NCBI RefSeq assembly: GCF_910596095.1 | Contig: NC_056554.1 | Span: 5,580,001 to 5,644,000 of the forward strand | Origin: Thunnus maccoyii | Taxonomy: Eukaryota > Chordata > Actinopteri > Scombriformes > Scombridae | Length of the DNA: 64,000 bases | Reading direction: 5' to 3' | Part shown: positions 35,600 to 64,000 of the stretch, one piece after another | How the letters are laid out: each line of letters starts with the position of its first letter | Numbering within the stretch: the stretch's first letter is position 1 | Notes under the pieces: generated by a model | What the model was told of the DNA's origin: nothing | Seen by the model: the letters and a program-made list of their open reading frames with translations, nothing else | The model's database searches: none | Position numbers and translations under genes: made by a program

Positions 35600-36743
35600 A
35601 TGGTGAAGATTTTCATCGGGAACCTGTCTCAGCATGCTGAGAAGGATGAAGTTGAAGCTCTGTTTGCAAAGTACGGCACAGTGACCGAATGTGCAAAGTA
35701 CAAAAACTACGCTTTTGTCCACATGGAAGACCGCAAGGCCGCCACCAAAGCCATCCGTGAGCTCCATCTGTACAAGCTCAGTGGCAGGCCCATCAATGTG
35801 GAGCCCAGCAGGGGGAAGAACCAGGGCCCCGTCAAGCTGCACGTAGCCAATGTAGAGAAAGGCTACAGTGACGAGCTGCGTGCACTGTTTGAGGAGTACG
35901 GCACCGTCTCCGAGTGCTCCATTGTGAAGGACTTTGCTTTTGTGCACATGGATAACTCTGATGAGGCCATGGATGCAATGAAAGGCCTGGATAACACAGA
36001 GTTTCAAGGTAAGTCAACTTTTGATGATGTAGGAATGGATGGATTTTGGAAGTTCTAAGGGTTCCATACAGTTTAGTGTCTAGCAGTTTTGGATTTGAGG
36101 GCCAATGTTTTTCTCTCTCATAGGGAAGCGCATACATGTTCAGATATCAAAAAGCAGAAGAGCGGTGCACAAGGAGGATGAGTATCCCCCTCCGCCAAAC
36201 AGAGGAGGCTATTATCCTCCTCGCTACCCAGGGGAGATGCCCGAGCCTCCCTACAGAGGTCGCATGTCCGCTTACCCGCCTCCGCCTCCGCCGCCCCCTC
36301 CTCCTCCGAGACGACCAGCGTATCCTGACCGTGGCTATGGCGAGCGAGACGGCTATGGGGTGGTCGATTACTATGAGAAATACAGAGCCCGTCCTTACAG
36401 CATCCCGGGCTACGATGACAGGCGTTCCAGTGCCATCCCCCCTCCTCCGCCTCCTCCTTCGGCGTTGGTTAGAGAACGTCTCGGGATGGGGTCCCTCGAT
36501 CCATACGAGCGACGGCCGCTCCCCCCTCCTCCTCCTACGTCCTACATGGCCAGGGACCGAAGCCCCATCAGACGAGCCCCGCTTCCACCTGCTCCGTCAG
36601 CTGGTAACGGCTACCCCTACGAGCGGTCCCGGCTCTCCCCGCTGTCCCGGTCTCAGATGTATGCGGCCCCCCGCCCCAGGGACTCGTTCTCGGAGAGAGT
36701 TCAGCCGCTGCCGCCACCGCCACCTCGCTATGCAAGCTATTAG
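35600..36743 (+). CDS. RBM4-like RNA-binding protein, upstream tandem copy (342 aa)
   Basis: Two-RRM splicing and translation regulator of the RBM4/Lark family, expected in nucleus, speckles and cytoplasm. Coding exons 35600-36008 and 36124-36743. RRM1 (residues 2-72) has RNP2 KIFIGNL and RNP1-like NYAFVHM; RRM2 (about 79-148) has KLHVANV and DFAFVHM. The exon boundary falls at EFQ|GKRIHVQ, a family junction. The C-terminal half is Pro/Tyr/Arg-rich with runs of prolines, then [25 protein letters not shown] and [11 protein letters not shown], echoing the DRSPLRRA motif of mammalian RBM4. The CCHC zinc knuckle that follows RRM2 in mammalian RBM4 is absent. A second intron lies in the 3' UTR. 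Start chosen at 35600 (A at -3, G at +4), right after the UTR acceptor. Teleosts have several rbm4 paralogs (rbm4.1, rbm4.2); I cannot say which this is. Confidence 0.9.
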
Positions 36744-41864: not shown

Positions 41865-42452
41865 TCATGAATAACACATGTGAGTCTCATCAGTTTCCAA
41901 GGGGCCTTGGGTCCTAAGACTAGCAGGTAAACCGTTCATCACACGTGAGCCTGTGTCCATTACGGGTGTGGTACTAGGCACAAACATGCATGTCTCCTTG
42001 GATGGAGACACTGTCAGCACCTCCAACTCCACCTCAAAGCTCCCCTTGGCCTCGCCGGGCTCTCGGATGATAAGCATCTCATACTCTCCGAACCGGATCA
42101 GGGCCTTGGCCGGGAGATCCATCTTCTCCAGGTAGTTCAGTGTTGAGCTGTTTACTGACAGTCGTCCCCTCTGGGTCAGGTTCTGGATGGTGAACAGCAT
42201 GTCCGGGCTCTGGGGTGTGCGGTATGCATGGAGGGCCATCTGTTTACGGGACACCCGGGGGTCAACCAGGGCAAAGGTGCAAGCCTGGGCGTCACGGCCC
42301 AGCCTGAGAGGGTCCTCTGCTGAGTGTCTTCTCCTGTTCCCCAGAGGAAGCAGACTGTAAAGGCCCTTAGAAGTCTGCTGCGGGTGGTAGAGCTTGATAT
42401 GGAGACAAGTCAGGAGATCCTCCTCTGTCTCCATTGTCTGGGACACATTCAT
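41865..42452 (-). CDS. tifa: TIFA, TRAF-interacting protein with forkhead-associated domain (195 aa)
   Basis: Adaptor of innate immunity. In mammals ALPK1 senses bacterial ADP-heptose and phosphorylates TIFA on Thr9; TIFA then oligomerises through FHA-pThr9 contacts and recruits TRAF6 to activate NF-kappaB. The coding part is a single exon, with an acceptor (TTTCATCACAG) 15 nt before the ATG at 42452. FHA features: LRLGRDAQ (residues 49-56), VSRKQMALHAY, and a C-terminal strand MDLPAKALIRFGEYEMLI that closely matches human MDLPYRCMVRFGEYQFLM. Counting from this start places a Thr at position 9 in METEED, matching the human ADTEE context. The tail has PLETDE (184-189), fitting the TRAF6 pattern PxExx(acidic). 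An open frame extends past the ATG into the intron, but it is not spliced in. The 5' exon was not located. Confidence 0.93.
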   Translation of the reverse strand: MNVSQTMETEEDLLTCLHIKLYHPQQTSKGLYSLLPLGNRRRHSAEDPLRLGRDAQACTFALVDPRVSRKQMALHAYRTPQSPDMLFTIQNLTQRGRLSVNSSTLNYLEKMDLPAKALIRFGEYEMLIIREPGEAKGSFEVELEVLTVSPSKETCMFVPSTTPVMDTGSRVMNGLPASLRTQGPLETDETHMCYS

Positions 42453-42467
42453 GATGACAAAAAGCTC

Positions 42468-44220
42468 CTGTGATGAAATCAGCAGAGGGCTGACCTTCAA
42501 TGATGAAGGGCTGTTGGAGCAGAAAGCAAACAAACCCATTGGAATACAAGTAGATAGGGTGGTTTACCAGTCAAACACAAGTAAAGTAATACAACAAATA
42601 TACAAATTCCTGTTGTTAGATCATTGTGTCTTACCTGTATGTTGAATTCCCTAATTTGAAGAACACTTGGTTTTACTACATCCACAGGAAAACTGCATCA
42701 AATAGAGTGTGTCACACTCAGGGGGAACTAGCGGTGTTGGTGCTGAGAATGAAAACAGGCTAACTCTTTCTGTTTGCTCTTTTCATGCTGCTGTCTTCGC
42801 TCCTCCCGCTTGGTTTCGTCACTCTCACAAGACCCAGTGGTAATGATGGTGCGGTCAATTGCACATACGGAAATATCACTACTCTAAATGTGTGGATGAC
42901 GTAAAGCAGTAGTGAATTCAAAGGATAAGTCGTGATTTTCATTCAGTGTTGTTAACATAAGGTGAACATGGAAGTTATGTTCACCAACTGGTAAAATAAA
43001 GTGTATGTTAGTTTGTAAACTATTATATAATCACATTTGTCAGTCTTTCTTGGTAATTTGCCACTCTTACTTTCTAACATGAATACATGATCAGTGGATC
43101 AGCAGGGAAATTTGCAAAGAAAAAGAAAAAAATTAATAAACGATTTTGGCAAGTATTTATTCATATTTCAACCTAACATGCCTATCATACACTGGTTTAC
43201 ACAAACTAAACTGTAACTAGCTGTAAATATATTTGTGTTTTAGACTGTTAATTAGACAATAAAAGCAATTTCAAGATGTCACTTTGGCTTCTGGGAAATT
43301 GTAATAGCCATGTTAAACACATTTTACAGAGTAATTATTATTTGGAAAAATAATCAACATATTATTCATCAATAAAAAAGAATGATATATTGCAAGGCTA
43401 CACCACAATGTTGTGCTGTAATGTGCCACCAGCCTACAATAGGGTCGCTGCTACTTTTTCGTACAATGTTCACTCTTTTTACTTTTCTAATCAAATATTT
43501 CACGAGTTGATCAGAGTTCTGTAACATACGATTTCAAGATGAGCACCTTAACGCAGCATTGGGGCACTGAAAAATTCCCCGATGACGCAACTTGAAACAG
43601 AAAGGACGACTCTTCTTAAATTTCACATTGTTGACCAGGGATCCGACCGTGGCGGGAGGCATAATCCTGTTGTAAAATGACACCGTTACACATTAATCCA
43701 GGAAGAAGTCGTTTACTTACGTGTAATAATTTAATCCCCTTGCATGTCACAGCTAGTAGTATGATTCAAGCAGAGAAAACGACGTTATTGGTTAAATATG
43801 AGACATTGTGAGTTACTTCCAAACCATGGCTGACTTGCCTTGCTGTTTGTTAATATATTGTTCAATAAAGCATTAAAAACTACCAGACATGGACAGAAAT
43901 ATGCTGGAAGTGGGTTTCCGGCAAGAAAAGACAAAACATGATAGTGTGTGGCATCATTTTTAACTTCCCCAGGTGTAAAGAATATGATATACTCATACAG
44001 TTATCTCGGGGTTTAAAACATGTAAAATATATGCATACTTAATACATAAAGCGGACGATGGACACTGCCCCCTCCTAGGCAGTAGGGGGCGGTGTGACTG
44101 TGGGTCACAAAAAGGGACAAACGGGGAAGAAAAAAGGGGGCAGAAAGCGGAAGTTAGCTAAAGCTGTTTATACATCCGTGAAAGGAAAACTCTCGAAAGG
44201 GGTTTGAATTTTTTGTAGAG
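42468..44220. other. tifa upstream region to the second rbm4-like promoter
   Basis: Divergent interval between tifa and the second rbm4-like gene. No open frame is convincing. The tifa first exon and promoter should lie within the first few hundred bases. From about 43600 the sequence becomes promoter-like (GATCCGACCGTGGCGGGAGG), and 44050-44230 holds a G-rich block with a CTCF-like word before the probable rbm4 5' UTR. Confidence 0.45.
44078..44094 (+). promoter_or_regulatory. CTCF-like site upstream of the second rbm4-like gene
   Basis: GGCAGTAGGGGGCGGTG matches the vertebrate CTCF core (CCASTAGGGGGCGCT) at most positions; it has G in place of the expected C near the end. It sits about 150 bp before the likely transcription start. 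Motif match only. Confidence 0.4.
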
Positions 44221-44951: not shown

Positions 44952-46096
44952 ATGGTGAAGATTTTTGTTGGGAATCTGCCTCGAGAGGCAGACCAGGATG
45001 AGATCAAGGCTCTCTTTACCCAGTACGGCACAGTCACAGAGTGTGCCATCATCAAGAACTACGCCTTCGTCCACATGGATGACCGCAAGGCTGCCACCAA
45101 AGCCATCAAGAATCTGCACCTCTTCAAGCTTCACGGCACACCTATCAACGTCGAGGCCAGCCATGGGAAGAACCAGGGATCTGTCAAACTGCATGTGGCA
45201 AATGTAGAGAAGGGATCTGATGATGAGCTCCGTTCACTCTTCGAGGAGTACGGCACGGTCACAGAGTGTGCTGTTGTCAAGAATTTTGCTTTCGTACACA
45301 TGTCCAACTCTGATGAGGCCATGGATGCCATCAAGGGACTAGACAACACTGAATTCCAAGGTAAGAAAGGGCCAGTATGTAAAAAAAAAAAAAAAAAGTA
45401 GTGTTGACAGCTTGTCTAACTTTAAACCTGATTGTGTAATATGTGTATCTTCTTTTGCATTTAGGCAAACGCATCCATGTACAGATTTCTAAGAGCCGTC
45501 CCAGACATGACGAACGGGACGACTACCCCCCTCCTCCCCCAGACAGGGCAGGCTATTGGCCCCCACGCTACCCAGGAGAAAGGCATGAGCCCCCACCTCC
45601 GAGCTACCTGAGGGGCCGCCTCAGTCACATACCCCCAGGTTACCCCGCCCCTCCTCTGCCGCCCCCTCCCCCCCGACGAGCCGTTTACCCTGACCGTCCC
45701 TATGAGGGTGAGAGGGACAGATATGGCGTGGTAGATTACTATGAGAAGTACAGAGCCCGTCCTTATGGCATTGCCTCCTACGAGGACCAACGTGCTGGCG
45801 CCCCTCCTCCTCCCCCTCCCCCTTCAGCCGTCGTGCGAGACCGTCTTATGACCTCGCCGCTCGACCCGTACGAGCGTCGGCCTCTCCCTCCTCCTCCGTC
45901 CTCGTACTACGCCCGAGACCGTAGTCCTCTGAGGAGAGCACCTAGCACGCCAATGCCCCCTGCAGGTAACGGCTACTCCTACGAGCGCTCCCGTCTCTCT
46001 CCGGTTCCCCGGGTACCGGCATACGGAGTTCCTCGAGCCAGGGACCCCTACGCAGACCGGCTGCCTCCGCCACCGCCTGCACGCTACGCTTATTAA
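44952..46096 (+). CDS. RBM4-like RNA-binding protein, downstream tandem copy (346 aa)
   Basis: Paralog of the gene at 35600. Coding exons 44952-45360 and 45465-46096; exon 1 has exactly the same length (409 nt) and phase as its neighbour. RRM1 starts [20 protein letters not shown], nearer to mammalian RBM4 (MVKLFIGNLPREATEQEI) than the upstream copy is. RRM2 has KLHVANV and NFAFVHM. The tail shares [42 protein letters not shown] and a PPPPARYAY end. There is no CCHC zinc knuckle. The start follows a 5' UTR acceptor (TTTTGATACAG) 10 nt upstream. Intron 1 has a 16-17 nt poly-A run. Tandem duplicates now flank tifa, which reads the other way. Confidence 0.92.
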
Positions 46097-48163: not shown

Positions 48164-49092
48164 CAATACTTTGTCTGATACCATACATTTAACAATAGAA
48201 ACATGTTTTTCTACTAACCCTTTTTTCACTGAGCAAACTTATGTTAAAACATATGTAATAGCTTTGTCTAAATAGTCTAAAACTGGTGAAATTATGATTT
48301 AAATCAAAGTGTGTTCAACCAATAGGCACTTACAGTTACTATGTAATCAAATATTTTCAATTTGTACTCTTGTTATATTTAATACCAGCTTTTAGTACTT
48401 ACATATATTAATATATTTTGTGGGGCTGCCACAGTCACTATTTGGATACCTTTTGGTCCGTACCAAAAAAAGTATTGATGGGTGAAACCCAGCCCAAGTT
48501 ATATTGAACGTGGAAATATATCAATATAATTCTGCTAATGTTTAAGACAATATATAAATAGGTTAATTGATGTATTTGCTCATGTCTGAAGGCAGCCCTA
48601 GTATAATTACATTTCTACTGTTTTTATTTCTACAACAATTAATCAAGTAGTTGTTAGCTATTAAGTTAAGGTTAAGATCAGATTTTTTGAGAAAAAATGT
48701 CCAAATTCTCTGATTTCAGCTTCTCAAAAAAGCATATTTTCTGGTATCTTTGGTCCTCTGTGACAGTAAACTGAATATCTTTGGGTTGTGGACTGTTGGT
48801 TGGGACAAAACAAGACACTAAAGGAATGTCGCTTTGGGAAACTGGTTGAGGTTTTTCACCTCTTTCTTACATTTTATTGACCAAATGACTAATCAATTAA
48901 TCGAAAATAATTAACAGATTAATTGATGTGAAAATAATTACCCACTGTTTATGTAAGTACACCTTTTTAACCTTTTGATGGTTTCGTTCAGATTTCAGTG
49001 TCCTGTGTATCAATGCAGCATCAGTGGGTTTGGTTTTATCTTCATTTAAAAAGTTTCAGTTTCATTCAGCTTAATCTGCAAGTACCACTGAA

Positions 49093-49109
49093 GGCCACTA
49101 GAGGGAGCA
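49093..49109 (+). promoter_or_regulatory. CTCF-like word in the duplicated block (first copy)
   Basis: GGCCACTAGAGGGAGCA resembles the CTCF core. An identical word occurs in the second block at 56894-56910. Motif match only. Confidence 0.35.
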
Positions 49110-50143
49110 TGCTCACAATACAAAACTTTCTACTGGCCTGTCAAGAGCACTGGGTGGTGTAATGTAGGACTACAGTATGACATGTGTAGTAGTGTAATGT
49201 AGGAGTAGTGAATTGTCATTAGTCTATTGTTCCTCATCACTGTACAGCAGTTTGACACTACAAACATAAAGCTGTTATTGAAGATGTTTTCCTGCCCTTA
49301 AATTTCAAATGTTCTGCAGCAAGGAACAGGGTTGATTTCTGAATGTATTGTACTTATACTTTCATAGTGTGTTTCAACCACAATGCACGATTTTTGACAA
49401 TCATCTTTTGAGTTCGGTCACGGTTTAACAGTTAACGGTTTAAGTAAACACTTATGTGTGGTTTTGCAAGTGCTGGGCCTTTTTTTTAATCTCATGTCTT
49501 TCCAGCATGGTAAAACACAAACTGATACATGATGTGAAGTTAAATGAACCAATAAGATCTTTAAAAATATAATTTTAATAAGTTATTTTGATGAAATATT
49601 ATTTCTTCATAAAATCAGTAGACCTTTGTTGGGTGTAGTTATAATGCAGAGAGCTGAAGACCAGTCTTCCTGTTTACCACCACAATGGAAAATGACAAGC
49701 AGGGCATCAATACATGTCTATATTTGCATGCAAACACGCATCACTTCAGCTCAGACCACACTGTGCTCTCTCTTCCTGTCAAACAACCAACGTGACCTCA
49801 GTAACATTGAAGAACTCCATCTAAACTCTCTTTAATCTGACAATAATCAATGTCCTTACTGACCCCTCCTTAATCGAACACCAATCATATTCTTTTGCTT
49901 TTACATTGAGAGTGAAGACAGATTAAATAAGCAAAGGAAAATAAACAGTCATGTGAGAAATAAAACTCAGCACCAAGACTGCAAATTTGCCACAAATACA
50001 TCTTTATTACAAACTGGATTTTTTTGACATGGTGATAGTTGCTTCTCCCACCTGCCAGCTGTACAAAAACACAACAGCAGAGTGATATACTGGAACAAGT
50101 TATCAGTTGACCTCTAAGCTGCAGTTCCATGTGCTTCCTGAGT

Positions 50144-51529
50144 CTATCTGGTGGCAGCATAAATCACATTTGGCTCCACTTCTCTCCCTGATGCAGGCCT
50201 TCGGATTCTTTTGGGCTTTGGATTGAAACTCAGTGCTGCGTAGTTCAGGTTATCAGAGCCCAGATTCTGCAAATTAAAGTATTTACAATCACTCATCTGA
50301 CAGCTGACTTTGTGAGGAAAAACTAAAAGAAATAACTGATGAATGACTTGAAGTGATTGTAGCACTTCCTACATTTTAATACATAAAAGAAAGTTTTCAA
50401 GTTAGATTCACCTCACTCTGTGGTGTATTTTGTTCTTCATTAGGAGCTATACAAGAGAGACAACACGTTATCAGTTAATTAATCACATTTATCATATTCC
50501 AAATCATGTTTACACAACTTTAAATAGGACATGCAAACACAACAGAGCCAAATATAAAAAGATACAGTAGCTCTAACAAATACCTGTCTGAAGCGTCTTG
50601 ATTTTGACAACCAGACCAATGACGACCATTATAAGGAAAACAGTCAAACCACCCAGGATCACACTCATCAGCTTTGTTATTCCATCAGACTCTTCTACAA
50701 GAAAGATTGAAAGATCAGATTCTACTTTAGCTTCAGTGTTTTGGCACCCTGCTAACATTAAAAATGAATCTAGTTTCACCTTCAGTTGACTGACAGTTTG
50801 TGCAATAAAAGAAAACTTTAACAGAATCTTACTTTTACACTCGCTGTCCACGTCATCACTGAATTCATTGTGGCCTTGAAATGAAACAAAGACAAATGGA
50901 TGTTATTTTGAAACACTTGCTTTGTAATCATAATGCTGAAGTAATCACACTTGTTGGACACAATGGTGAGAATCTAAATTTGCAATATACCAAAAAACTC
51001 AAGAGACAAGAAAACTGAAATCATTCTTACCTTGAAATTTTAAATCTATTACTTTAAGTACTGTACGTCCATCCATGTAAAATCCACAGAAATACAGCCC
51101 AGAGTCAGATAAATCCACTTGCGTGATTTTAAGAGAGACAGTAGAGACGTTGGAACTCATTTTGAATTTCCCATTTTGGAATCCATCACAGTATTCAGCA
51201 TTGCCACCAGATCCGTACATAGAGGAGATACAGCTGATCTCGGTTCTATCGACAAATCTGGACCAAAATGTGTGAGTTGGAGTTCTGGAGATGTTGGAGC
51301 ACTGCAGTGTGACTTCTTCACCAGGCTGGACCTCCACAGTCTGAGACTCAGAAACTGAGACAGTGATCCAGCCTGAAACACACAGAGACAACAAGAGATT
51401 TACTCCTCAGCTGATAAAGCAACAGGGACCTAAATCCTTACACCCTAGATGTAGATGTTTAATATTTCAATGTCAGTACTTACTGAGGCTGCAGAGAAGT
51501 AAAGCTGTTATCAAGATAAAGCTCCTCAT
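50144..51529 (-). CDS. Single Ig V-type domain membrane receptor with ITIM-like tail, copy 1 (232 aa)
   Basis: Six exons on minus: 51529-51484, 51372-51031, 50874-50833, 50694-50584, 50446-50412, 50266-50144; 699 nt, all in frame. Signal peptide MRSFILITALLLCSLS; V-type Ig domain about 20-130 with Cys40 and Cys111 (SDSGLYFCG) as the core pair and Cys63/Cys77 as a likely extra pair, as in CD300/pIgR-type domains, though the tryptophan at 52 lies in FWSRF; short stalk; membrane helix 152-173 with no charged residue, so no adaptor pairing is expected; 40-residue tail exon with LNYAAL at 199-204, fitting ITIM (L/V/I/S-x-Y-x-x-L/V/I), and VIYAAT near the end, which does not. Expected to act as an inhibitory receptor on leukocytes (inference). 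I do not recognise a named family; CD300-like, NITR and DICP are alternatives. Confidence 0.82.
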
Positions 51530-53470
51530 TGTGTGTATGATCGTCCAACTGCAATGACTCTTTATTCTCTGAGCTCATGTACAGGGGCTTTGTTGGAAAG
51601 AGGCGGGGAGTTTTTTATGTTGACGCTCTTACTGGCCACATAAATGACTTCCGAACAAGAAGTGTTGAAACAAGATCATAGCCTCAAAGAGTGATTTCCT
51701 CAACCTGTGTTGAACATTCGATTTAATGTTCTATTAAAAGTCCATTTATCTACAGAGTGAAAATGTCTTCATGTTACAACTGAAAGGACACGAAATTTGT
51801 GTTTGTGCTGTAGGTACTTTAACAACCAAGTAGTAGTTGCTTTGAGAGTATGAATTTGATACTTTAAACCTGCAGACAGACAAAGTTAGTGACTATCTGG
51901 GGAACATAGTGGAGCATTTAGCAGCTAAAGAGACAGATATTTTTCTCAGGAGTTGGTGGAAACCAAAATAGAGCTAACAGGGCATTCACACATACAGACT
52001 CAAAGGTTGGGAAAGTGACAGCTGCTATTCATTGTGAATGAGACCTGGCTTTACAGCCTGGTGGCCCCCACTGAGCTAGAGAGATTAAGAAAGCAACAAC
52101 CAGCAACCAGTCAAATGCACTCATTTTGATTTCTGTGTAAACGGAATAGCAGAGTTGTTCATTACGTAAACTAACTTTAAACAAAATGGAGGAAAAACTG
52201 ATCGTCACTATCTCCGGTTTCTCTACAACCTGTATTTAATGAGCTGCCAGGTTTTAAAAGAATGACGATGTGTAGAAACAAATTGCCGACATTGTTGCTT
52301 CATTAGTACAGAGGCTATGTGAGAAAATAGCTGTCCAGTCGGAGCAGAGTATGTAAATGTATGTGTTCAACACAACACACACAGAACTACAGATTGATAA
52401 GAGTCCAGAGACTGCCGACTACTTTGCATCCATATGTGTGAACCCGCCATAAAAGAAGAGTGAATATTGGACTTACATTCCTCAGCTGGATAGAAACATG
52501 ACTCCAAATAAATGTTAATATTGCAAACAAACTTTACAAGGTGATAATATGTCAGATATTGTCTTCATGGTTTGTTCTCCGCTGCCCCCAAGTGGACAAA
52601 AATCTGTTAATGCAGCATTAAGAAAGTTATATAATTTGGGTAATCCATACACACATGTATCAGTGTTGTATCAGAGATATTTGCTGTTTTCATTCCATCT
52701 TCTTTTTGAGGATATTTGCCTTTAGCCACAGGCCCTTTTCACAGCAGACATTTGTCACTGTAGGAAAAGCACAGGTGTCTCTAACAACAATAACTATGCC
52801 TCCGCTTTATTCAGGTGTCCCAGTAAAGTCATGACAGTGTGACAGTGAGCCAGCATGCACAATAGCAGGACCCTGAAACTGAAGCACCTAAATGGAATTC
52901 AGCCATCATTCATTTTATTATTTACACCTTTTCCTGCTGCAACATGTCAAAATGTCTGCAATGAAAAGGGTCTCTGTGTTACAAGTAAGTGTTTCATCAA
53001 TTCTGTCATCAACACAGTATATCAAGAGTGAGATAAAGACAACAAGTGCCAGTTTCATTAACATTGTTGTTTCACGCCTGTTGCAGCTGATATTGTGAAC
53101 GTTACAGACTGGAGAATAGCACTCAGCTGAAAGCCAGTCTTCCTGTGGTTGAGACTTCACTTCAGGCTGATACAGACAGAACCGTTTGTTACCACAGTGG
53201 AAAGTGTCAGAATGGGCAGATGTAGGGCATACAGTAATGCAAACACACTCAGGGCCGAAACTGAGTAGCTACTGTATCTTTGTATTTTTCGGTTGGATAT
53301 GTAGCACCTGACTACATGCTGTCTAGCTGTGATGTGTGCAGAATCCTGTTTCTGTAATGTGAATTCAGTATTTTCAAGAACATTGATTAAATGTAGAGAA
53401 TAATTTTAAAGAAAGTCTGCCAGTATTCACTGCTTCCTTTGAGATTTTACTCCTACAAAGCTTTGAGTTA
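51530..53470. other. Spacer between receptor copies 1 and 2
   Basis: The first 400 bp (promoter side of copy 1) match the flank of copies 2 and 3. The rest contains no supported gene except a weak 48-codon frame at 52918-53064 on minus. The region near 53130-53230 resembles diverged downstream flank of copies 1 and 3 (AGTCTTCCTGT, TACCACA.TGGAAA), showing an older duplication. Confidence 0.5.
52918..53064 (-). CDS. Possible 48-aa secreted Cys-rich peptide (weak)
   Basis: A short open frame starts MLMKLALVVFISLLIYCVDD, which has the shape of a signal peptide. It is followed by about 28 residues with five cysteines counting the CC pair, ending CCSRKRCK. No homolog is recognised, no splice sites or promoter are evident, and frames of this length arise by chance. 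It may equally be a decayed leader exon of an Ig receptor. Confidence 0.15.
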   Translation of the reverse strand: MLMKLALVVFISLLIYCVDDRIDETLTCNTETLFIADILTCCSRKRCK

Positions 53471-53872
53471 ACAGACCTCATGATTTTATAACCCTGTCTC
53501 CTAAAAATGATGTCAAACAAGTGATGTGTACCTCACTCATTCATCCAGTTACAGCCTTCCATATAACTCTTTCTAGAAGAGAATCTGGACAGTCATAATC
53601 CTCCTTCAAACACCAGTCACATTCTTCGAACATAATATAAGAGACTTCAGATGAGAAAAAAGAGATAGAGAGGAAAAAATGAAGGAGACGGTGAGAATTG
53701 AAATAGAGCACCACCAAAAATAGCATGAATATAAGCTCTTTATTGCAAAACACAGTTTTTTGACAAAGTGATGATAACTCTTCCCATCCAACAGCTGCAC
53801 TAAATCAAATAAACACATTCATAGAAAAAAAAAAGTTTCACTCTGAGTTGCAGTTCCAGTTGCTTCCTGAGT

Positions 53873-55292
53873 CTATCTGCTGGCAGCATAAATAACCTGA
53901 GTCTCCACTTCTCTCTCTGATGCATGCCTCCTGCTTCTTATTGTTGCTGAATATAAACTCAGCGCTGTATCATTGAGGTCATCAAAGTCCAGGTTCTGCA
54001 AATAAGAGTCAGAGAACTCTCATACAACATATAGGACTTCACAAACAATGTCAGATGATGACAAATGATATAATCATCTTAAACATACAATAAAGAAATA
54101 ATCATGAGTTAAAGTGATTCTGGGATATTTTAAGCCTGAGATCATACAAAAGTAGAAATACGTATTCACCTTATTTTTTTGTGGATGCTGTTCTTCATTA
54201 ATGGCTAAATGACAGACACAATCAGCTCATCAACATTAATCATTATCCAAAAACATTGTTGTTAATGCACTTTGACATAACAATACAAGTATGTGCACGA
54301 GCAATAAAACCAAATATAAAAAGATACAGTAGCTCTCACAAGTACCTTTCTGAAGCTTCTTGATTTTTACAACCAGACCAATGACAACCATTACAATGAA
54401 AGCAGTCACACCACCCAGGATCATACTCGTCAGCTTTGTTATTCCATCAGAATCTTCTACAAGAAAGACTGAAAGATCAGATTCTACTTTAGCTTTAGTG
54501 TTTTGGCATCCTGCTAACATTAAAACTGAATCTAGTTTCACCTTTAGTTGACTGACAGTTTGTGCAATGAAAGAAAATTTTAGGAGAATCTTACTTTTAC
54601 ACTCGCTGTCCACGTCATCACTGAATTCATCGTGACCTTCAAATGAAACAAAGATCAATTTAAACTGGATGTTATTTTGAAACACTTGCTTTGTAATCAT
54701 AATGCTGAAGTAATCACACTTGTTGGATACAATGGCGAGAATTTGCAATATACCAAAAAACTCAAGAGACAAGAAAACTAAAATCATTCTTACCTTGAAC
54801 ATTTAAGTGTATTACTTTAAGTGCTGTACGTCTGTCCAAGTAAAATCCACAGAAATACAGCCCAGAGTCGGATAAATCCACTTGCATGATTTTAAGAGAG
54901 ACAGTAGAGACGTTGGAACTCATTTTGAATTTCCCATTTTGGAATCCATCACAGTATTCAGCATTGCCACCAGATCCGTACATAGAGGAGATACAGCTAA
55001 TCTTGGTTCTGTTGACAAGTCTGGACCAAAACGCAGGAGTTGGAGTTCTGGACATGTTGGAGCACTGCAGTGTGACTTCTTCACCAGGCTGGACCTCCAC
55101 AGTCTGAGACTCAGAAACTGAGACAGTGATCCAGCCTGAAACACACAGAGACAACAAGAGATTTACTCCTCAGCTGATAAAGCAACAGGGACCTAAATCC
55201 TTACACCTTAGATGTAGATGTTTAATATTTCAATGTCAGTACTTACTGAGGCTGCAGAGAAGTAAAGCTGTTATCAAGATAAAGCTCCTCAT
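53873..55292 (-). CDS. Single Ig V-type domain membrane receptor, copy 2, ITIM tyrosine lost (232 aa)
   Basis: Exons on minus: 55292-55247, 55135-54794, 54636-54595, 54456-54346, 54204-54170, 53995-53873; the same six lengths as copy 1, 699 nt, open throughout. The Ig domain differs from copy 1 at a few places (CSNMSRTPTPAFWSRLVNRT; CGFYLDRRTALKV). The membrane helix is intact. The tail has diverged most: the ITIM-like LNYAAL of copy 1 is LNDTAL here (Asp at 201), the following Pro/Lys stretch is replaced by LYSATIRSRRHAS, and only VIYAAS remains at the end. Expression could still deliver a surface receptor, but without a consensus ITIM, which suggests altered signalling or a decoy role (inference). 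Confidence 0.8.
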
Positions 55293-55922
55293 TGTGTGTA
55301 TGTTCGTCCAACTGCAATGACTCTTTATTCACTGAGCTCATGTACAGGGGCTTTGTTGGAAAGAGGCGGGGAGTTTTTTATGTTGACGCTCTTACTGGCC
55401 ACATAAATGACTTCCGAACAAGAAGTGTTGAAACAAAATCATAGCCTCAAAGAGTGATTTCCTCAACCTGTGTTATCTGAACATTCAATCTAATGTTCTA
55501 CTAAAAATCCATTTATCTACAGAGTGAAAATGTCTTCATGTTACAACTGAAAAGACATGAAATTTGTGTTTGTGCTGTAGTTACTTTAACAACCAAGTAG
55601 TAGTTGCTTTGAGAGTATGAATTTGATACTTTAAACCTGCAGACAGACAAAGGTAGTGACTATCTGGGGAACATAGTGGAGCATTTAGCAGCTTAGCAGC
55701 TTTATGTAAATGTCCTCTGACACAGTGTAAGCGACAACCAGCCAGAACCAATCACACTTGTTTTGATTCCTGTGAAAATTGAAGCACAGAGTTGTTCACT
55801 ATTCCACACCGCTGTGTGAACTCACTTTAAACAAAATGGAGGAAAAGCTGATCGTCACTGTCTCCAGTTTCTCTACAACTTGTATTTAATGAGCTGTGTG
55901 GAAACAAATTGCGGACATTACT
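55293..55922. other. Upstream flank of receptor copy 2 and junction with unit 2
   Basis: Matches the upstream flank of copy 1 until about 55919, where GACATT joins the start of the 48164-type block. That point is a duplication breakpoint, offset about 7.76 kb from the original block. Confidence 0.65.
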
Positions 55923-57404
55923 CAATACTTTGTCTGATACCATACTTTGAACAGTAGAAACATGTTTTTCTACTAACCCTTTTTTCACTGAGCAAACTTA
56001 TGTTAAAACATATGTAATAGCTTTTTCTAAATAAAATAATCTCATACTGGTAAAATTATGATTTAAATCAAAGTGTATTCAGCCAATAGGCACTTACAGT
56101 TACTATGTACTCAAATATTTTCAATTTGTAGTCTTGTTATATTTAATACCAGCTTTTAGTACTTACATATATTAATATATTTTGTGGGGCTGCCACAGTC
56201 ACTATTTGGATACCTTTTGGTCCGTACCAAAAAAGTATTGATGGGTGAAACCCAGCCCAAGTTATATTGAACGTGGAAATATATCAATATAATTCTGCTA
56301 ATGTTTAAGACAATATATAAATAGGTTAATTGATGTATTTGCTCATGTCTGAAGGCAGCCCTAGTATAATTACATTTCTACTGTTTTTATTTCTACAACA
56401 ATTAATCAAGTAGTTGTCAGCTATTAAGTTAATTGCCAACTATTTTGATAATCAAATCATCATTTTGAGTCATCTTTTGAGAAAAAATGTCCAAATTCTC
56501 TGATTTCAGCTTTTCAAATGGGAATATTTTCTGGTATCTTTGGTCCTCTGTGTCAGTAAACTGAATATCTTTGGGTTGTGGACTGTTGGTCGGGACAAAA
56601 CAAGACATTCAATGAATGTCACTTTGGGCTTTGGGAAACAGTGGTTGAGTTTTTTCACCTTTTTCTAACATTTTGTGGACCAAATGACTAATCAATTAAT
56701 AAAGAAAATAACTAACAGATTAATTGATGTGAAAATAATTACCCACTGTTTATGTAAGTACACCTTTTTAACCTTTTTATGGTTTCATTCAGATTTCAGT
56801 GTCCTGTGTATCAATGCAGCATCAGTGGGTTTGGTTTTATCTTCATTTAAAAAGTTTCAGTTTCATTCAGCTTAATCTGCAAGTACCACTGAAGGCCACT
56901 AGAGGGAGCATGCTCACAATACAAAACTCTCTGCTGGCTTGACAAGAGCACTGGATGGTGTAATGTAGGCCTACAGTATGACATATGACCATCCAGCTCC
57001 ACCCAAGCTGTAGGGGAAAACGGGGTAACATGAACCACTTTTTACATTTGATGATTTTACTGTAAAATAAAAGTGTATTTATTCCAAATAATAGTTACTA
57101 TATACACCTTAGGTTGTTGTGTAATCATGGAAATTAAAACACGTTATCTAATTATTATGGTTTTAGAACAATGACCCATGAAAAAAAGTTAGTCCTATGG
57201 CACAACTTACCCCAAGGTAGGGGTAAAATGAGCATGGGGATGGAGTAACCTGAGTGCTATACTGATATAAAAATATCACAAAATCAAACAATTTTGAGAT
57301 CATTTTGAACTTTATTAATGCCATCAATTTAGCAAAGACAAAAACTCATACTTTTAAGTAAAACCATATGTTTGTGTCCTGTTGTTCAACATGTTATCTA
57401 AACA

Positions 57405-57549
57405 TTTTCAGTAAGGCAAGGCAACACATTTCAACAACAAGGCAGTTCAAATTGCTTTACATAGAGCATAAAAGGCATCAAGACAGAATATAAAAGCAAC
57501 ACAAGTAAAAAGACATTTAAATACAATTAAAAAGTGTTAATAAAGTCAA

Positions 57550-57631
<82 letters not shown>

Positions 57632-57950
57632 AAACAGGAGAATAAAAGTTATAGTGCAGTGTAAAATATTAACCCTTAAATATGACTTAATCAAAGGCGG
57701 CGGCAAACAGAAAAGTCTTCAGCTGTGATTTAAAAGAACTGAGAGTTGCAGCAGACCTGCAGTTTTCTGGGAGTTTGTTCCAGATATGTGGAGCATAAAA
57801 ACTGAGCACTGCTTCTTCATGTTTAGTTTTTACTCTGGGGACAGAAAGCAGACCTGCCCCAGACGACCTGAGAGGTCTGGATGGTTCATAACATAGCAGC
57901 AGATCAGAAATGTATTTTGGCCCTAAACCATTCAGTGCTATATAAACCAA
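57405..57950 (-). mobile_element. L2-clade LINE, 3' end with C-terminal reverse-transcriptase segment
   Basis: The minus frame at 57950-57687 reads like the conserved C-terminus of fish L2/Maui-type LINEs (KYISDLLLCYEPSRPLRSSG, then PHIWNKLPENCRSA, then FKSQLKTFLFAAAFD and a stop). Downstream on minus comes the typical 3' tail (CAAGGCAACACATTTCAACA on plus). It is 5'-truncated, as LINE insertions usually are. An ATCT microsatellite interrupts the 3' UTR. Confidence 0.75.
57551..57630. repeat. (ATCT)n microsatellite, about 20 units
   Basis: An uninterrupted run of ATCT units over 80 bp. The purity suggests it is young and likely length-polymorphic. Confidence 0.98.
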
Positions 57951-58062
57951 TAGCAGTATTTTAAAATCAATTCTCTGACAGAAAGGAAGCCAGTCAAGAT
58001 TAAACTGTGATCTTTGTGTGTTAGCTACATAAAAAATGTGTGCGTAAATGTGCTTTTGTGTA

Positions 58063-58927
58063 TACAGACAGGTGACAAATTAAAGGAAAAACCAGTCCAG
58101 ATCTGAATGCTTGACCCCTACAGTGAAGGGATCTGGTGGCTCTGCTATGCTGTGGGGGGCATTTTGCTGGTTTGGTTTGGGTCCACTTGTCCCCTAGAGC
58201 TTCATTTTTACTCCTGGGCAGACGCGTACACGGACCGCTGTGGACACCACGGACGGGTAGTTGCTCTGTTTATACTACCGTCTGGGGTCCACTTGGGGGG
58301 TCTGTTCTACACATGCGCGGTAGATCACCGCCAGCGTTGTGACCGCATGGACTGGTGCGGACAGGTCCACGTGGACACAACAAATTGCAGGTACGCAGAT
58401 GTCCAAACAGAGCTTATGCGCACACCCTCTGATGACAAAATTTACGTCACGTGGACTCTAGCGGACTCGTGGATGTGGAAACCAGGGTCACTGCAGATCA
58501 ATATAAAGTTGTCCTGAGTGATCACCTTTATCCTATGATGAAACATTTCTATCCTGATGGAAGTAGTCTCTTCCAGGATGACAATGCCCTCATCCATAGG
58601 GCACGAGGGGTCACTGAATGGTTTGATGAGTATGAAAATGATGTGAATCATATGCTATGTCCTTCACACTCACCAGATCTCAACCCAATTGAACATCTAT
58701 GGGAGATTTTGGACTGAGGTGTTAGACAGCGCTCTCCACCACCATTATCAAAACACCAAATGAGTGGATATCTTTTTGAAGAGTGGTTTTCATCCCTCCA
58801 GTAGAGTTCAGAGACTTGTAGAATCAATGCCAAGGAGCACTGAAGGTGTTTGGTCAGCTCGTGGTGGCCCAACACCTTACTATAGCACTTAATGTTGGTT
58901 TTTCCTTTATTTTATCACCCATCTGTA
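58063..58927 (+). mobile_element. Shortened Tc1 transposon with a separate 0.28-kb insert
   Basis: Ends are inverted (TACAGACAGGTGACAAATTA left; TACAGATGGGTGATAAAATA in reverse at the right), both continuing into AAAGGAAAAACC. Only the C-terminal third of a Tc1 transposase remains: a GSGGSAMLWG-type part that is frame-shifted, then TADQYKVVLSDHLYPMMKHF, FQDDNALIHRARG and [15 protein letters not shown], which carry the second D and the final catalytic acid region of the DDE fold. The N-terminal DNA-binding half is gone. At about 58200-58483 a GC-rich foreign piece splits it. Confidence 0.85.
58200..58483. mobile_element. GC-rich 0.28-kb insert inside the Tc1 copy
   Basis: Tc1 sequence stops after CCCCTAGAG and resumes at AGGGTCACTGCAGATC. 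Between them lies GC/CpG-rich DNA (GCAGACGCGTACACGGACCG ... GGACTCTAGCGGACTCG) unlike its surroundings. I recall similar words in non-autonomous fish elements, perhaps Harbinger-derived, but terminal repeats are not clear. Confidence 0.5.
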
Positions 58928-60616
58928 CGTACACCATGTTTGTGTGTAGCTTAAACTTAATATTAATCATCAATTAGGTAGTCATTCATCAACATTGTAA
59001 CACTTGTAACAGTGATCAAACATGAACATGAACAGTCTCTCTAGTCTCTAGAATATCAGAAAATAATTTCTGGGGGTAAATTGAGCCATTGACTCAACTT
59101 GCCCCAATATCTCTGGCATGTTTTACCCCACAACCTCCATTTAGACAAAACTGTTTCACACAGTGGCTCAGATCCACAGTTATGCTAAGTTTATGAACTT
59201 GTTTTGTAGCTTACACTGACTTAAATTAACATGTAATAATGTCCAAAACTTATCTATAATAACTATAATAACTTAAGTAACATGATGAATTCACTTGGCA
59301 TGACAAAAATCTTTTGTTTTGCTCTGTTTTGCTTACCACTCTCTCCATGTGCTTGAGTCCAAGATGGATAGAGCAATGTGAACTATACTTTCTTAATTTG
59401 TGGTCACATGATTACTTTTGTTTATGGCTACCTAGATAAAGGGGGTGGCTCATTTTACCCACTGGCTCAATTTACCCCGTTCTCCCCTAGTACATGCAGC
59501 TTACAGACTGATGTAGGGTTGTGTGGTTTGGTTCACATTTGATGAGGTTCAGAAATAGATGTCAGTTTATTGGGTGGGTAAGGTGTGTTCACTGTTCATA
59601 ACCACAATTTTACACAGGATGTAATCACTTGATAATCATCTGACTCACACCTGATTTACAGCGTGAGTAATATACATCACTTTGGCAGAGTAGTGAATTG
59701 TCATTAGTCTATTGTTCCTCATCACTGTACAGCAGTTTGATACTACAAACATAAAGCTGTTATTGAAGATGTTTTCCTGCCTTAAATTTCAAATGTTCAA
59801 ACTGCAGCAAGGAACAGGGTTGATTTCTGAATGTATTTATACTTATACTTTCATAGTGTGTTTCAACCACAATGCACAATTTTCCAGTTTCATCTGTTGA
59901 GTTTGGTCACGGTTTAACAAAGTAAACACTTGTGTGTGGTTTTGCAAGTGCTGGGCCTTTTTTTTTATCTCACATCTTTCCAGCATGGTAAAACACAAGC
60001 TGATACATGATGTGCAGTTAAATGAACCAATAAGATCTTTAAAAATATAATTTTAATAAGTTATTTTGATGAAATATTATTTCTTCATAAAATCAGTAGA
60101 CTTTTGTTGGGTGTAGTTATAATGCAGAGAGCTGAAGACCAGTCTTCCTGTTTACCACCACAATGGAAAATGACAAGCAGGGCATCAATACATGTCTATA
60201 TTTGTATGCAAACACGCAGTACTTCAGACCACACTGCACTCTCTCTTCCTGTCAAACAATCAATATGACCTCAGTAACATTGAAGAACTCCATCTAAACT
60301 CTCTTTAATCTGACAATAATCAATGTCCTTACTGACCCCTCCTCAATCGAACACCAATCATATTCTTTCACTTTTACATTGAGATTGAAGACAGATTAAA
60401 TAAACAAAGGTAAATTAACAGTCATGTGAGAAATAAAACTCAGCACCAAGACTGCAAATTTGCCACAAATACATCTTTATTACAAACTGGATTTTTTTGA
60501 CATGGTGATAGTTGCTTCTTCCACCTGCCAGTCGTACAAAAACACAACAGCACAGTGATATACTGGCACAAGTTATCGGTTAACCTCTAAGCTGCAGTTC
60601 CAGGTGCTTCCTGAGT

Positions 60617-61998
60617 CTATCTGGTGGCAGCATAAATCACATTTGGCTCCACTTCTCTCCCTGATGCAGGCCTTCGGATTTTTTTGGGTTTTGGATTGAA
60701 ACTCAGTGCTGCGTAGTTCAGGTTATCAGAGCCCAGATTCTGCAAATTAAAGTATTTACAATCACTCATCTGACAGCTGACTTTGTGAGGAAAAACTAAA
60801 AGAAATAACTGATGAATGACTTGAAGTGATTGTAGCACTTCCTACATTTTAATACATAAAAGAAAGTTTTCAAGTTAGATTCACCTCACTCTGTGGTGTA
60901 TTTTGTTCTTCATTAGGAGCTATACAAGAGAGACAACACATGTTATCAATTAAGTAATCACATTTATCATATTCCAAATCATGTTTACACAACTTTAGGA
61001 CATGCAAACACAACAGAGCCAAATATAAAAAGATACAGTAGCTCTAACAAATACCTGTCTGAAGCTTCTTGATTTTGACAGCCAGACCAATGACGACCAT
61101 TATAAGGAAAACAGTCAAACCACCCAGGATCACACTCATCAGCTTTGTTATTCCATCAGACTCTTCTACAAGAAAGATTGAAAGATCAGATTCTACTTTA
61201 GCTTTAGTGTTTTGGCACCCTGCTAACATTAAAACTGAATCTAGTTTCACCTTCAGTTGCAGAAAGAAAGAAAGAAAACTTCAGGAGAATCTTACTTTTA
61301 CACTCGCTGTCCACGTCATCACTGAATTCATCGTGACCTTCAAATGAAACAAAGACAAATTTAAACTGGATGTTATTTTGAAACACTTGCTTTGTAATCA
61401 TAATGCTGAAGTAGTTGCACATGTTGGACACAATGGTGAGATCTAAATTTGCAATATACCAAAAAACTCAAGAGACAAGAAAACTAAAATCATTCTTACC
61501 TTGAACATTTAAGTGTATTACTTTAAGTGCTGTACGTCTGTCCAAGTAAAATCCACAGAAATACAGCCCAGAGTCGGATAAATCCACTTGCATGATTTTA
61601 AGAGAGACAGTAGAGACGTTGGAACTCATTTTGAATTTCCCATTTTGGAATCCATCACAGTATTCAGCATTGCCACCAGATCCGTACATAGAGGAGATAC
61701 AGCTAATCTTGGTTCTGTTGACAAGTCTGGACCAAAACGCAGGAGTTGGAGTTCTGGACATGTTGGAGCACTGCAGTGTGACTTCTTCACCAGGCTGGAC
61801 CTCCACAGTCTGAGACTCAGAAACTGAGACAGTGATCCAGCCTGAAACACACAGAGACAACAAGAGATTTACTCCTCAGCTGATAAAGCAACAGGGACCT
61901 AAATCCTTACACCTTAGATGTAGATGTTTAATATTTCAATGTCAGTACTTACTGAGGCTGCAGAGAAGTAAAGCTGTTATCAAGATAAAGCTCCTCAT
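60617..61998 (-). CDS. Single Ig V-type domain membrane receptor with ITIM-like tail, copy 3, mosaic (232 aa)
   Basis: Exons on minus: 61998-61953, 61841-61500, 61337-61296, 61165-61055, 60919-60885, 60739-60617; again 699 nt and open. The Ig domain exon encodes exactly the protein of copy 2 (CSNMSRTPTPAFWSRL; CGFYLDRRTALKV), whereas the membrane-helix exon (LMSVILGGLTVFLIMVV) and tail exon (LNYAAL, VIYAAT) are those of copy 1 with single differences (Val to Ala at 172, Arg to Lys in PKPKK). Its genomic position also corresponds to copy 1. The gene is therefore a copy-1 duplicate whose front end was overwritten from copy 2 or an unseen sister. Intron 3 is 130 nt, against 138 in the other two, because of a GAAA microsatellite. 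Confidence 0.82.
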
Positions 61999-62441
61999 TG
62001 TGTGTATGATCGTCCAACTGCAATGACTCTTTATTCACTGAGCTCATGTACAGGGGCTTTGTTGGAAAGAGGCGGGGAGTTTTTTATGTTGACGCTCTTA
62101 CTGGCCACATAAATGACTTCCGAACAAGAAGTGTTGAAACAAGATCATAGCCTCAAAGAGTGATTGTAAGGCTACAGGAGAAAATCCTCAACCTGTGTTA
62201 TCTGAACATTCAATCTAATGTTCTACTGAAAGTCCATTTATCTACAGAGTGAAAATATCTTCATGTTACAACTGAAAGGACATGAAATTGTGTTTGTGCT
62301 GTAGGTACTTTAACAACCAAGTAGTAGTTGCTCTGAGAGTATGAATGATACTTGACACGTGCAGACAGACAAAGGTAGTGACTATCTGGGGAACATAGTG
62401 GAGCATTTAGCAGCTAAAGAGACAGATATTTCTCTCAGGAG

Positions 62442-63894
62442 CCAGAGAGTTTGCCATGGCCTGCTTGGCTACAGGCGTGATGAGATGCTCTTGAGAGGAA
62501 CTCACATAGTCAAGCACATTGACATTAGGTGGAGGATCTGCCAGTAGCTGCTCTCGCAGCAGTTTCAAGGGGCCTCTGACTCTGTGGCCGAACACCAACT
62601 CGGTGGGGCTAAACCCCAGTGAATCTTGTACAGTTTCACAGACTGCAAACAACAGAAAGGATATGCCTTTGTCCCACTCTGGACCACGTTCAAGGCAGTA
62701 AATGCGTAGCATGTGCTTTAGAGTCTGGTGGAATCTCCTTTGCTCTCAGGATGATAAGCACTAGAAACCTGATGCTTAACAGTCATAACCACTAGCACTT
62801 GATTGAATACCTTAGACATGAAGTTACTTCCTTGATCTATTTGGATGACTTTAGGCAAGCCAAAAGTAGTAAAGAATTTCACAAGCTCTCTGACTACTGC
62901 ATACACACTGAAGTTAAATACACTAGCCTGCTAAACCACACAGTGTCAGTTAGTGTTATCAGCAATGTTTCATCCACTACAAATAAACCACAAATGTCTC
63001 CACTGAGACTCCAAGCTTGCAAAAAGGGGTTACAAAAGCTGTATGAATGGTAGCAATAAGCCACAAGCAAATCACAGTTCACAAACACAAATTAGTATTC
63101 AAGAAACTGTCACCTAAACTAAAGTACCCTCAGTACAAAATACACAGACTAAACTCACACAAGCAAAAGTGAGCACGATCCACAATGGTTTCTTAATTAC
63201 CAGCCTCACAAAAGGTTCAAGGGTTACACAAGTGACAGCTTTACTATGAATGCTCAACATTAACTCCCAAATCCTCACTACAGCTCATTCACACACAAAG
63301 CAAGCCTCACACAAGTCATCATGGGCAACCGAATACTACTCTTTAGACAGGATTGTGACATGTCTAACTTCCTACTCTAGAACTAACCCAGTTCCCTATC
63401 TAACTCAGGGTTACGACCTTACTTTACCTATTTATCTTCAGTGATGCACCCGGGCATGCCATGGGCCACCCCAGGGCTATCACACAAAAATAAAAAAGTG
63501 GTGTTGGTCTCTCCAGCACCCGCCGGCTTACTCAACCGGGTAAGTTCAACAAACTACCTCATGTGGCTGCACATAGATGACCTCACTAACTAACCAGAAA
63601 CTAAAGGACTAGGTTTGTATCCCAGACGAGCCCCCATTATTATGTTACGGCTGGCTCAAACACTGAACATAATGGACACAACATCAGTAGGAATTTATTA
63701 CATATGAGTTTATTAAAGTAAATTCATGAAATTAATGAATAAATGAAGACCAGATACCTAGCACCACAAAGGTGCTGCTGCAGCAGGATGGAGAGAGAGA
63801 GATGAACAAAAAGGACCTGCCCATATAGACTCAGCCCACTAATCAGCACAGGTGCCTGTCAACAGGAAACACCAAAATAAAACAGGATGTAACA
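62442..63894 (-). mobile_element. Broken LTR retrotransposon (Ty3/Gypsy-like), fossil
   Basis: Oriented on minus. An LTR lies at 63643-63894 (252 bp, TGTTAC...GTAACA ends). Beside it at 63619-63636 is a primer-binding site matching tRNA-Pro (TGGGGGCTCGTCTGGGAT), six bases from the LTR. Towards 62442 is a region recognisable as the integrase part of pol, of the type common in fish Gypsy elements. Only one LTR is seen. The element is incomplete and carries several breaks, so it is a fossil; age cannot be dated without an LTR pair, but it is younger than the receptor duplication it interrupts. Host sequence resumes on both sides. Confidence 0.75.
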
Positions 63895-64000
63895 ACAGAC
63901 CTCATGGTTTTACAACCCTGTCTCCTAGAAATGACGTCAAACAAGTAATGTGTACCTCACTCATTCATCCACTGTTACAGACCTCCATATAATTCTTTCT
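63895..64000. repeat. Start of another receptor unit (matches 53471-53580)
   Basis: ACAGACCTCATGGTTTTACA and the 100 bp after it are close to the sequence at 53471-53580, the flank just downstream of receptor copy 2. This implies that a fourth receptor gene begins about 300 bp beyond the window. Confidence 0.75.

Follow-up and report, generated by a model that had tools for sequence, protein, structure and literature searches.

A tandem array of single-V-domain, putatively inhibitory-type receptor genes in Thunnus maccoyii, with a mosaic third gene

In a stretch of 64,000 nucleotides from Thunnus maccoyii (NC_056554.1, positions 5,580,001 to 5,644,000 of the forward strand, here called the window) we found three complete genes for proteins with a single immunoglobulin (Ig) domain, designated g1, g2 and g3. 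The third of these is a mosaic, i.e. the outer part of g2 joined to the inner part of g1, and one of the three, g2, lacks the canonical immunoreceptor tyrosine-based inhibitory motif (ITIM) carried by the other two. We consider it fairly probable that the locus as a whole consists of receptor genes of the single-V-domain, ITIM type arranged in tandem, shaped by the duplication of a block and by the exchange of 5' halves, in which g2 and g3 resemble a receptor pair. An initial annotation of this DNA had proposed an array of inhibitory-type receptors, and in its single-V-domain, ITIM-type form this proposal is supported by the sequence.

Gene structure and the mosaic third gene

The genes and the tract that most directly reveals the mosaic are as follows.

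50144..51529, minus strand: g1, 232 amino acids, six exons (51529-51484, 51372-51031, 50874-50833, 50694-50584, 50446-50412, 50266-50144); canonical ITIM LNYAAL and ITIM-like VIYAAT
53873..55292, minus strand: g2, 232 amino acids, exons 55292-55247, 55135-54794, 54636-54595, 54456-54346, 54204-54170 and 53995-53873; canonical ITIM absent, with Asp at residue 201; the remaining motifs, SLYSAT and VIYAAS, are ITIM-like
60617..61998, minus strand: g3, 232 amino acids, exons 61998-61953, 61841-61500, 61337-61296, 61165-61055, 60919-60885 and 60739-60617; 5' half g2-like, 3' half g1-like, ITIM LNYAAL
61446..62142, minus strand: g2-like tract of g3, which matches 54740-55302 exactly over 563 bp and, past a single mismatch, 55304-55436 exactly over a further 133 bp

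Exon lengths of 46, 342, 42, 111, 35 and 123 nucleotides were found in all three genes, amounting to a coding sequence of 699 nucleotides (232 codons). All 15 introns have GT-AG boundaries, the intron phases (derived from the exon lengths) are 1,1,1,1,0 throughout, and an AATAAA follows each stop codon at a distance of 128-135 nucleotides. The annotated structure, namely three complete genes with six exons of equal length and 232 amino acids each, was consequently exact in 3/3 cases.

The encoded proteins begin with a leader, followed by a single V-set domain that has a second cysteine pair, an uncharged helix and a short tail. Scanning g1 and g2 against Pfam returned V-set matches with E-values of 2.7e-11 and 1.1e-12, respectively, both above the gathering score, and the Ig exon of g3 is identical to that of g2. 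Cysteines 40 and 111 are accompanied in 3/3 proteins by an extra pair, Cys 63 and Cys 77, with 13 residues in between (CX13C), while Cys 13 is situated within the leader. The predicted helices of g1, g2 and g3 are free of charged residues, with mean Kyte-Doolittle values of 2.54-2.75. The V-type Ig domain with an extra cysteine pair and the uncharged membrane helix of the initial annotation were thereby recovered. A single additional stalk cysteine, Cys 142, is found at the exon 3/4 junction, just outside the membrane, in all three proteins, and could permit disulfide-linked dimers.

The mosaic is most evident when the two halves of the coding sequence are compared separately. Over exons 1-3, g2 and g3 are identical at 430/430 bases and g1 and g2 at 408/430, while over exons 4-6 it is g1 and g3 that agree, at 265/269 bases, with g2 matching each of them at 217/269. 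Intron 5 of g3 is identical to that of g1 (145/145) and matches that of g2 at 74/142 positions. The g2-like tract of g3 runs from the 5' flank through the first two exons and the intron between them into the beginning of intron 2. Among the coding informative sites of g3, 22 consecutive ones in exons 2-3 are g2-like, and these are followed in exons 4-6 by 50 g1-like and two g2-like sites. The claim that the units of the array are near-identical accordingly does not hold uniformly along the gene.

Tails, divergence and a neutral alternative

For the cytoplasmic tails we followed the definition of an ITIM as (S/I/V/L)xYxx(I/V/L), a motif being ITIM-like when its first or last position fails (PMC2442602). 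Both g1 and g3 have one canonical ITIM, LNYAAL at residues 199-204, plus one ITIM-like motif, VIYAAT. In g2 the TAC codon of the ITIM tyrosine is replaced by GAT (Asp), leaving the ITIM-like SLYSAT and VIYAAS. Neither of the two g2 tail tyrosines has the Leu or Ile sought at position +3, so that g2 lacks tyrosines resembling an immunoreceptor tyrosine-based activation motif (ITAM). The inhibitory-type tyrosine tail, previously ascribed to all three proteins, therefore stands for g1 and g3 by virtue of LNYAAL, but not for g2.

Divergence between g1 and g2 is unevenly distributed as well. Synonymous divergence (dS) is 0.099 in the Ig exon and 0.318 in exons 4-6 (Fisher p 0.012), from which it follows that homogenisation of the 5' halves probably postdates the separation of the tails. 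In exon 6 alone dS reaches 0.55, and intron 5 of g1 and g2 agrees at 74/142 positions. The description of the array as young and expanding must thus be qualified, since the 3' halves of g1 and g2 look old and their 5' halves seem to have been homogenised at a later time, with g3 being recombinant. The 20 differences between g1 and g2 in exon 2 are clustered, the longest gap of 113 nucleotides being reached by 482 out of 100000 shuffles, and they fall in two groups, near residues 43-61 and 99-128. Uneven constraint explains these clusters no less well than short conversion patches.

A three-sequence shuffle test supports the mosaic, with 0/20000 for the whole gene, a figure to which the poorly aligned introns 4-5 contribute inflated numbers of g1-like sites, and 30/20000 over 61055-62142, where alignment is good. 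Several observations weigh against the model outlined above. No sharp breakpoint is seen, as the affinity of g3 switches between g1 and g2 in introns 2 and 3; there may have been several exchanges, or a single one with other changes after it. With three sequences and no outgroup, donor and acceptor are not distinguishable. The ratio of nonsynonymous to synonymous divergence (dN/dS) between g1 and g2 in the Ig exon is about 0.5 (0.51; 13 nonsynonymous and seven synonymous differences, Fisher p 0.17), and therefore gives no sign of diversifying selection, which is not supported for the Ig domain. The g2 helix carries no charged residue, so that g2 is not the usual activating partner of a receptor pair. 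Lastly, neutral concerted evolution would be expected to give the same pattern.

It is indeed conceivable, although we regard it as rather doubtful, that the locus merely undergoes ordinary concerted evolution without any functional pairing, in which signalling by g2 is being lost and exchange is neutral. The missing canonical ITIM of g2 and the only moderate constraint on the Ig exon would agree with this; on the other hand, g2 is intact, with all six exons, all splice sites and an AATAAA 128 nucleotides past the stop codon.

Affiliation with known receptor families

Ig receptors with ITIMs form several multigene families in fish, and most of their ligands are unknown. One of these families, the novel immune-type receptors (NITR) of bony fish, is among the best solved matches. 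By employing sequence searches of the PDB, we found NITR11 (3bdb, which we take to be the catfish protein) as the second of the best 60 out of 3609 matches to g1, with an E-value of 5.6e-8 and a BLASTP identity of 30% across 116 amino acids. NITR10 and NITR11 occupy six of these best 60 positions, and likewise six of the best 60 out of 1222 matches to the Ig domain of g2. Within the same sets, however, antibody chains score as high as NITR in both searches. The non-NITR entries for g1 bear antibody-derived names, save one "Glue molecule", and for g2 MDGA1 is placed just above NITR, with a T-cell receptor mu chain also present.

A tentative reading, which we hold to be possible but not favored, is therefore that these are plain NITR genes of the single-V kind, with NITR-derived tail and V domain, and that their lack of a name is an annotation gap. 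A literature search by motif led to the medaka NITR study, in which NITR12a carries LNYAAL, the very ITIM of g1 and g3, plus an ITIM-like motif (PMC2442602). Single-V NITRs without an I domain exist, the six-cysteine I domain being optional and confined to two-domain members. NITRs also form a clustered multigene family, and the uncharged helix with an ITIM or ITIM-like tail of inhibitory NITRs recurs here, in g2 through ITIM-like motifs only. Against this, nearly all medaka NITRs have a J or J-like motif, FGXGTXLX(V/L), whole or in part (PMC2442602), while in the tuna proteins FGXG is absent and only TVLKV (g1) and TALKV (g2 and g3) fit TXLX(V/L/I), a weak indication. Moreover, the single Ig exon leaves no room for an I domain, the extra CX13C pair is present, and a separate connecting-peptide exon of 42 nucleotides, in the style of NILT, stands in contrast to the exon order L, V, I, TM, C1, C2 of the medaka figure legend (PMC2442602). 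None of the NITR-cluster neighbor genes (Table 1 of PMC2442602) was recognised among 20 out of the 302 open reading frames of the window that were scanned, with Pfam only.

That the genes are divergent members of the novel immunoglobulin-like transcripts (NILT), a family of salmonids and cyprinids, seems improbable. They do share the exon scheme of its one-Ig genes, L-Ig-CP-TM-Cyt1-Cyt2 with phases 1,1,1,1,0, as well as several lengths in the published table, namely a leader of 46 nucleotides (10/16 rows), an Ig exon of 342 (3/16) and a Cyt1 exon of 35 (two rows) (PMC3022915). The extra cysteines of salmon NILT Ig domains are nevertheless spaced as CX3C, CX6C or CX7C instead of CX13C, and the connecting exon measures 81-204 nucleotides in the 15 rows listing one, as opposed to 42 here (PMC3022915). 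A single canonical ITIM is found here, as in two zebrafish NILTs, compared with four to five in salmon NILTs. YWCR/WCR on strand C, with a second disulfide, characterises CD300 as well as the CD300-like domain of SITR (PMC3031540); FWSR occupies that site in 3/3 tuna proteins, i.e. the CD300 YWCR motif is absent. Fish Ig receptors termed inhibitory also include the diverse immunoglobulin domain-containing proteins (DICP; PMC6540555), which serve as markers of natural killer-like cells in zebrafish (PMC5340972).

Judged by defining motifs, the array is thus not cleanly assignable to NILT or CD300, and no named family combining the six-exon scheme with a CX13C V domain was found in the literature searched, which consisted mostly of open-access papers available in part. 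The array adds to a kind of receptor already known, perhaps as a separate subfamily. More specifically, and with considerable reservation, it might be a distinct fish subfamily whose second cysteine pair apparently lies on strands C' and C'', unlike in NILT or CD300, and in which swaps from promoter to Ig domain maintain the inhibitory g3 together with its ITIM-less twin g2, both having the same ligand-binding face. Equally speculative within such a subfamily is that g2 and g3 might act as a tuning or decoy pair, with modules swapped between exon 3 and exon 4.

Block duplication, proposed mechanism and comparison with paired receptors

The arrangement of the array is described by three further features.

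48164..49186: sequence flanking g1 on the 3' side, which recurs at 55923-56987 with 91.7% identity
55923..62441: repeat of the g1 block, matching 48164-51952 and split by about 2.7 kb (56988-59687)
63894..64000: the last 107 bp of the window, matching 53470-53574 in the 3' flank of g2 at 90.7% identity and possibly opening a further unit

The remainder of the block, 49203-51952, matches 59688-62441 with 94.0% identity. Since the flanks of the two copies diverge by 4-8%, the duplication is not recent, and the exchange between g2 and g3 is later than it. The simplest history would be that a g1-g2 block was duplicated, the further unit lying past the end of the window as a possible fourth gene, and that 5' halves were subsequently exchanged. 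A falsely duplicated haplotype, or an assembly chimera in g3, which would leave fewer real genes, seems unlikely: the order g1-g2 followed by g3 and a further unit would fit a false tandem duplication, and the exact 563-bp tract a misassembly, but the flank divergence and the roughly 2.7 kb, holding part of a transposase gene, by which one copy is longer than the other exceed usual allelic differences, although immune loci can go beyond these.

The extra sequence between g2 and g3 holds this DDE_3 transposase fragment (58436-58714, plus strand) as well as a perfect TATC microsatellite of 20.5 copies (57550-57631), and a weak rve integrase match below the cut-off (27.9 bits) is located beyond g3 (62718-62927, minus strand). 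Outside the three genes, tblastn with the Ig, helix and tail pieces of g1 and g2 returned nothing under an E-value of 0.1 in the window, and Rfam gave zero matches at gathering thresholds. A search for relatives resulted in five pattern matches in viral_contigs and 75 in genome_contigs, none of which was confirmed, as expected for a vertebrate gene.

Elsewhere in the window, two tandem genes for RNA-binding proteins with two RRM domains each, presumably RBM4/Lark-like, were found on the plus strand (35600-36650 and 44952-46012; 69.5% DNA identity). Other features include an open reading frame with an FHA domain (41868-42563, minus strand, E 2.8e-5), which we assume to be TIFA-like, a HAUS4 exon (3249-3602, minus strand, E 1.1e-17) and a KH-domain exon (20799-21134, plus strand, E 4.7e-6), presumably FXR-like.

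Returning to the model of an ITIM-type array with a receptor pair, a block holding g1 and, presumably, g2 would have been duplicated in tandem. A non-reciprocal exchange, i.e. gene conversion or unequal crossing-over, would then have moved the half comprising promoter, leader and Ig domain between genes, with the tails remaining separate, and g3 would in this way have come to carry a g2 ectodomain on a g1 tail. All three proteins may be leukocyte surface receptors under nearly the same promoter; their 5' flanks are alike at 142-143 out of 144 bases in every pair. A phosphorylated ITIM recruits SHP-type phosphatases. Following this, g1 and g3 would damp activation through recruitment of the SH2 phosphatases SHP-1/SHP-2 to phosphorylated LNYAAL. 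The Ig domains of g2 and g3 being identical, both presumably bind the same ligand, and g2 would do so with weak or no SHP signalling, as a decoy or tuning partner. Such a role is likelier for g2 than activation, because it has neither a charged helix nor ITAM-like tyrosines.

If this holds, the array captures a step by which fish ITIM Ig receptors may evolve, their outer and inner halves being traded as modules. With the same Ig domain and another tail, g2 and g3 constitute a natural test pair for separating ligand binding from signalling. Caution is also called for where "young duplicates" are judged on Ig exons, as these may be older genes homogenised later.

Near-identical ectodomains with differing tails, a feature of paired receptors, are found in g2 and g3 (430/430 versus 217/269 bases), whereas an activating partner with a charged helix or ITAM was not found among g1, g2 and g3. 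In the mammalian pairs SIGLEC11/SIGLEC16 (PMC5701461) and CD300A/CD300C (PMC12447643), gene conversion keeps the ectodomains similar and the tails differ; the partner in tuna, g2, differs from these in being ITIM-poor rather than activating. A comparable split is seen in Ssa-NILT1 and Ssa-NILT2, which share 96% identity in the Ig domain and 67% in the cytoplasmic region (PMC3022915).

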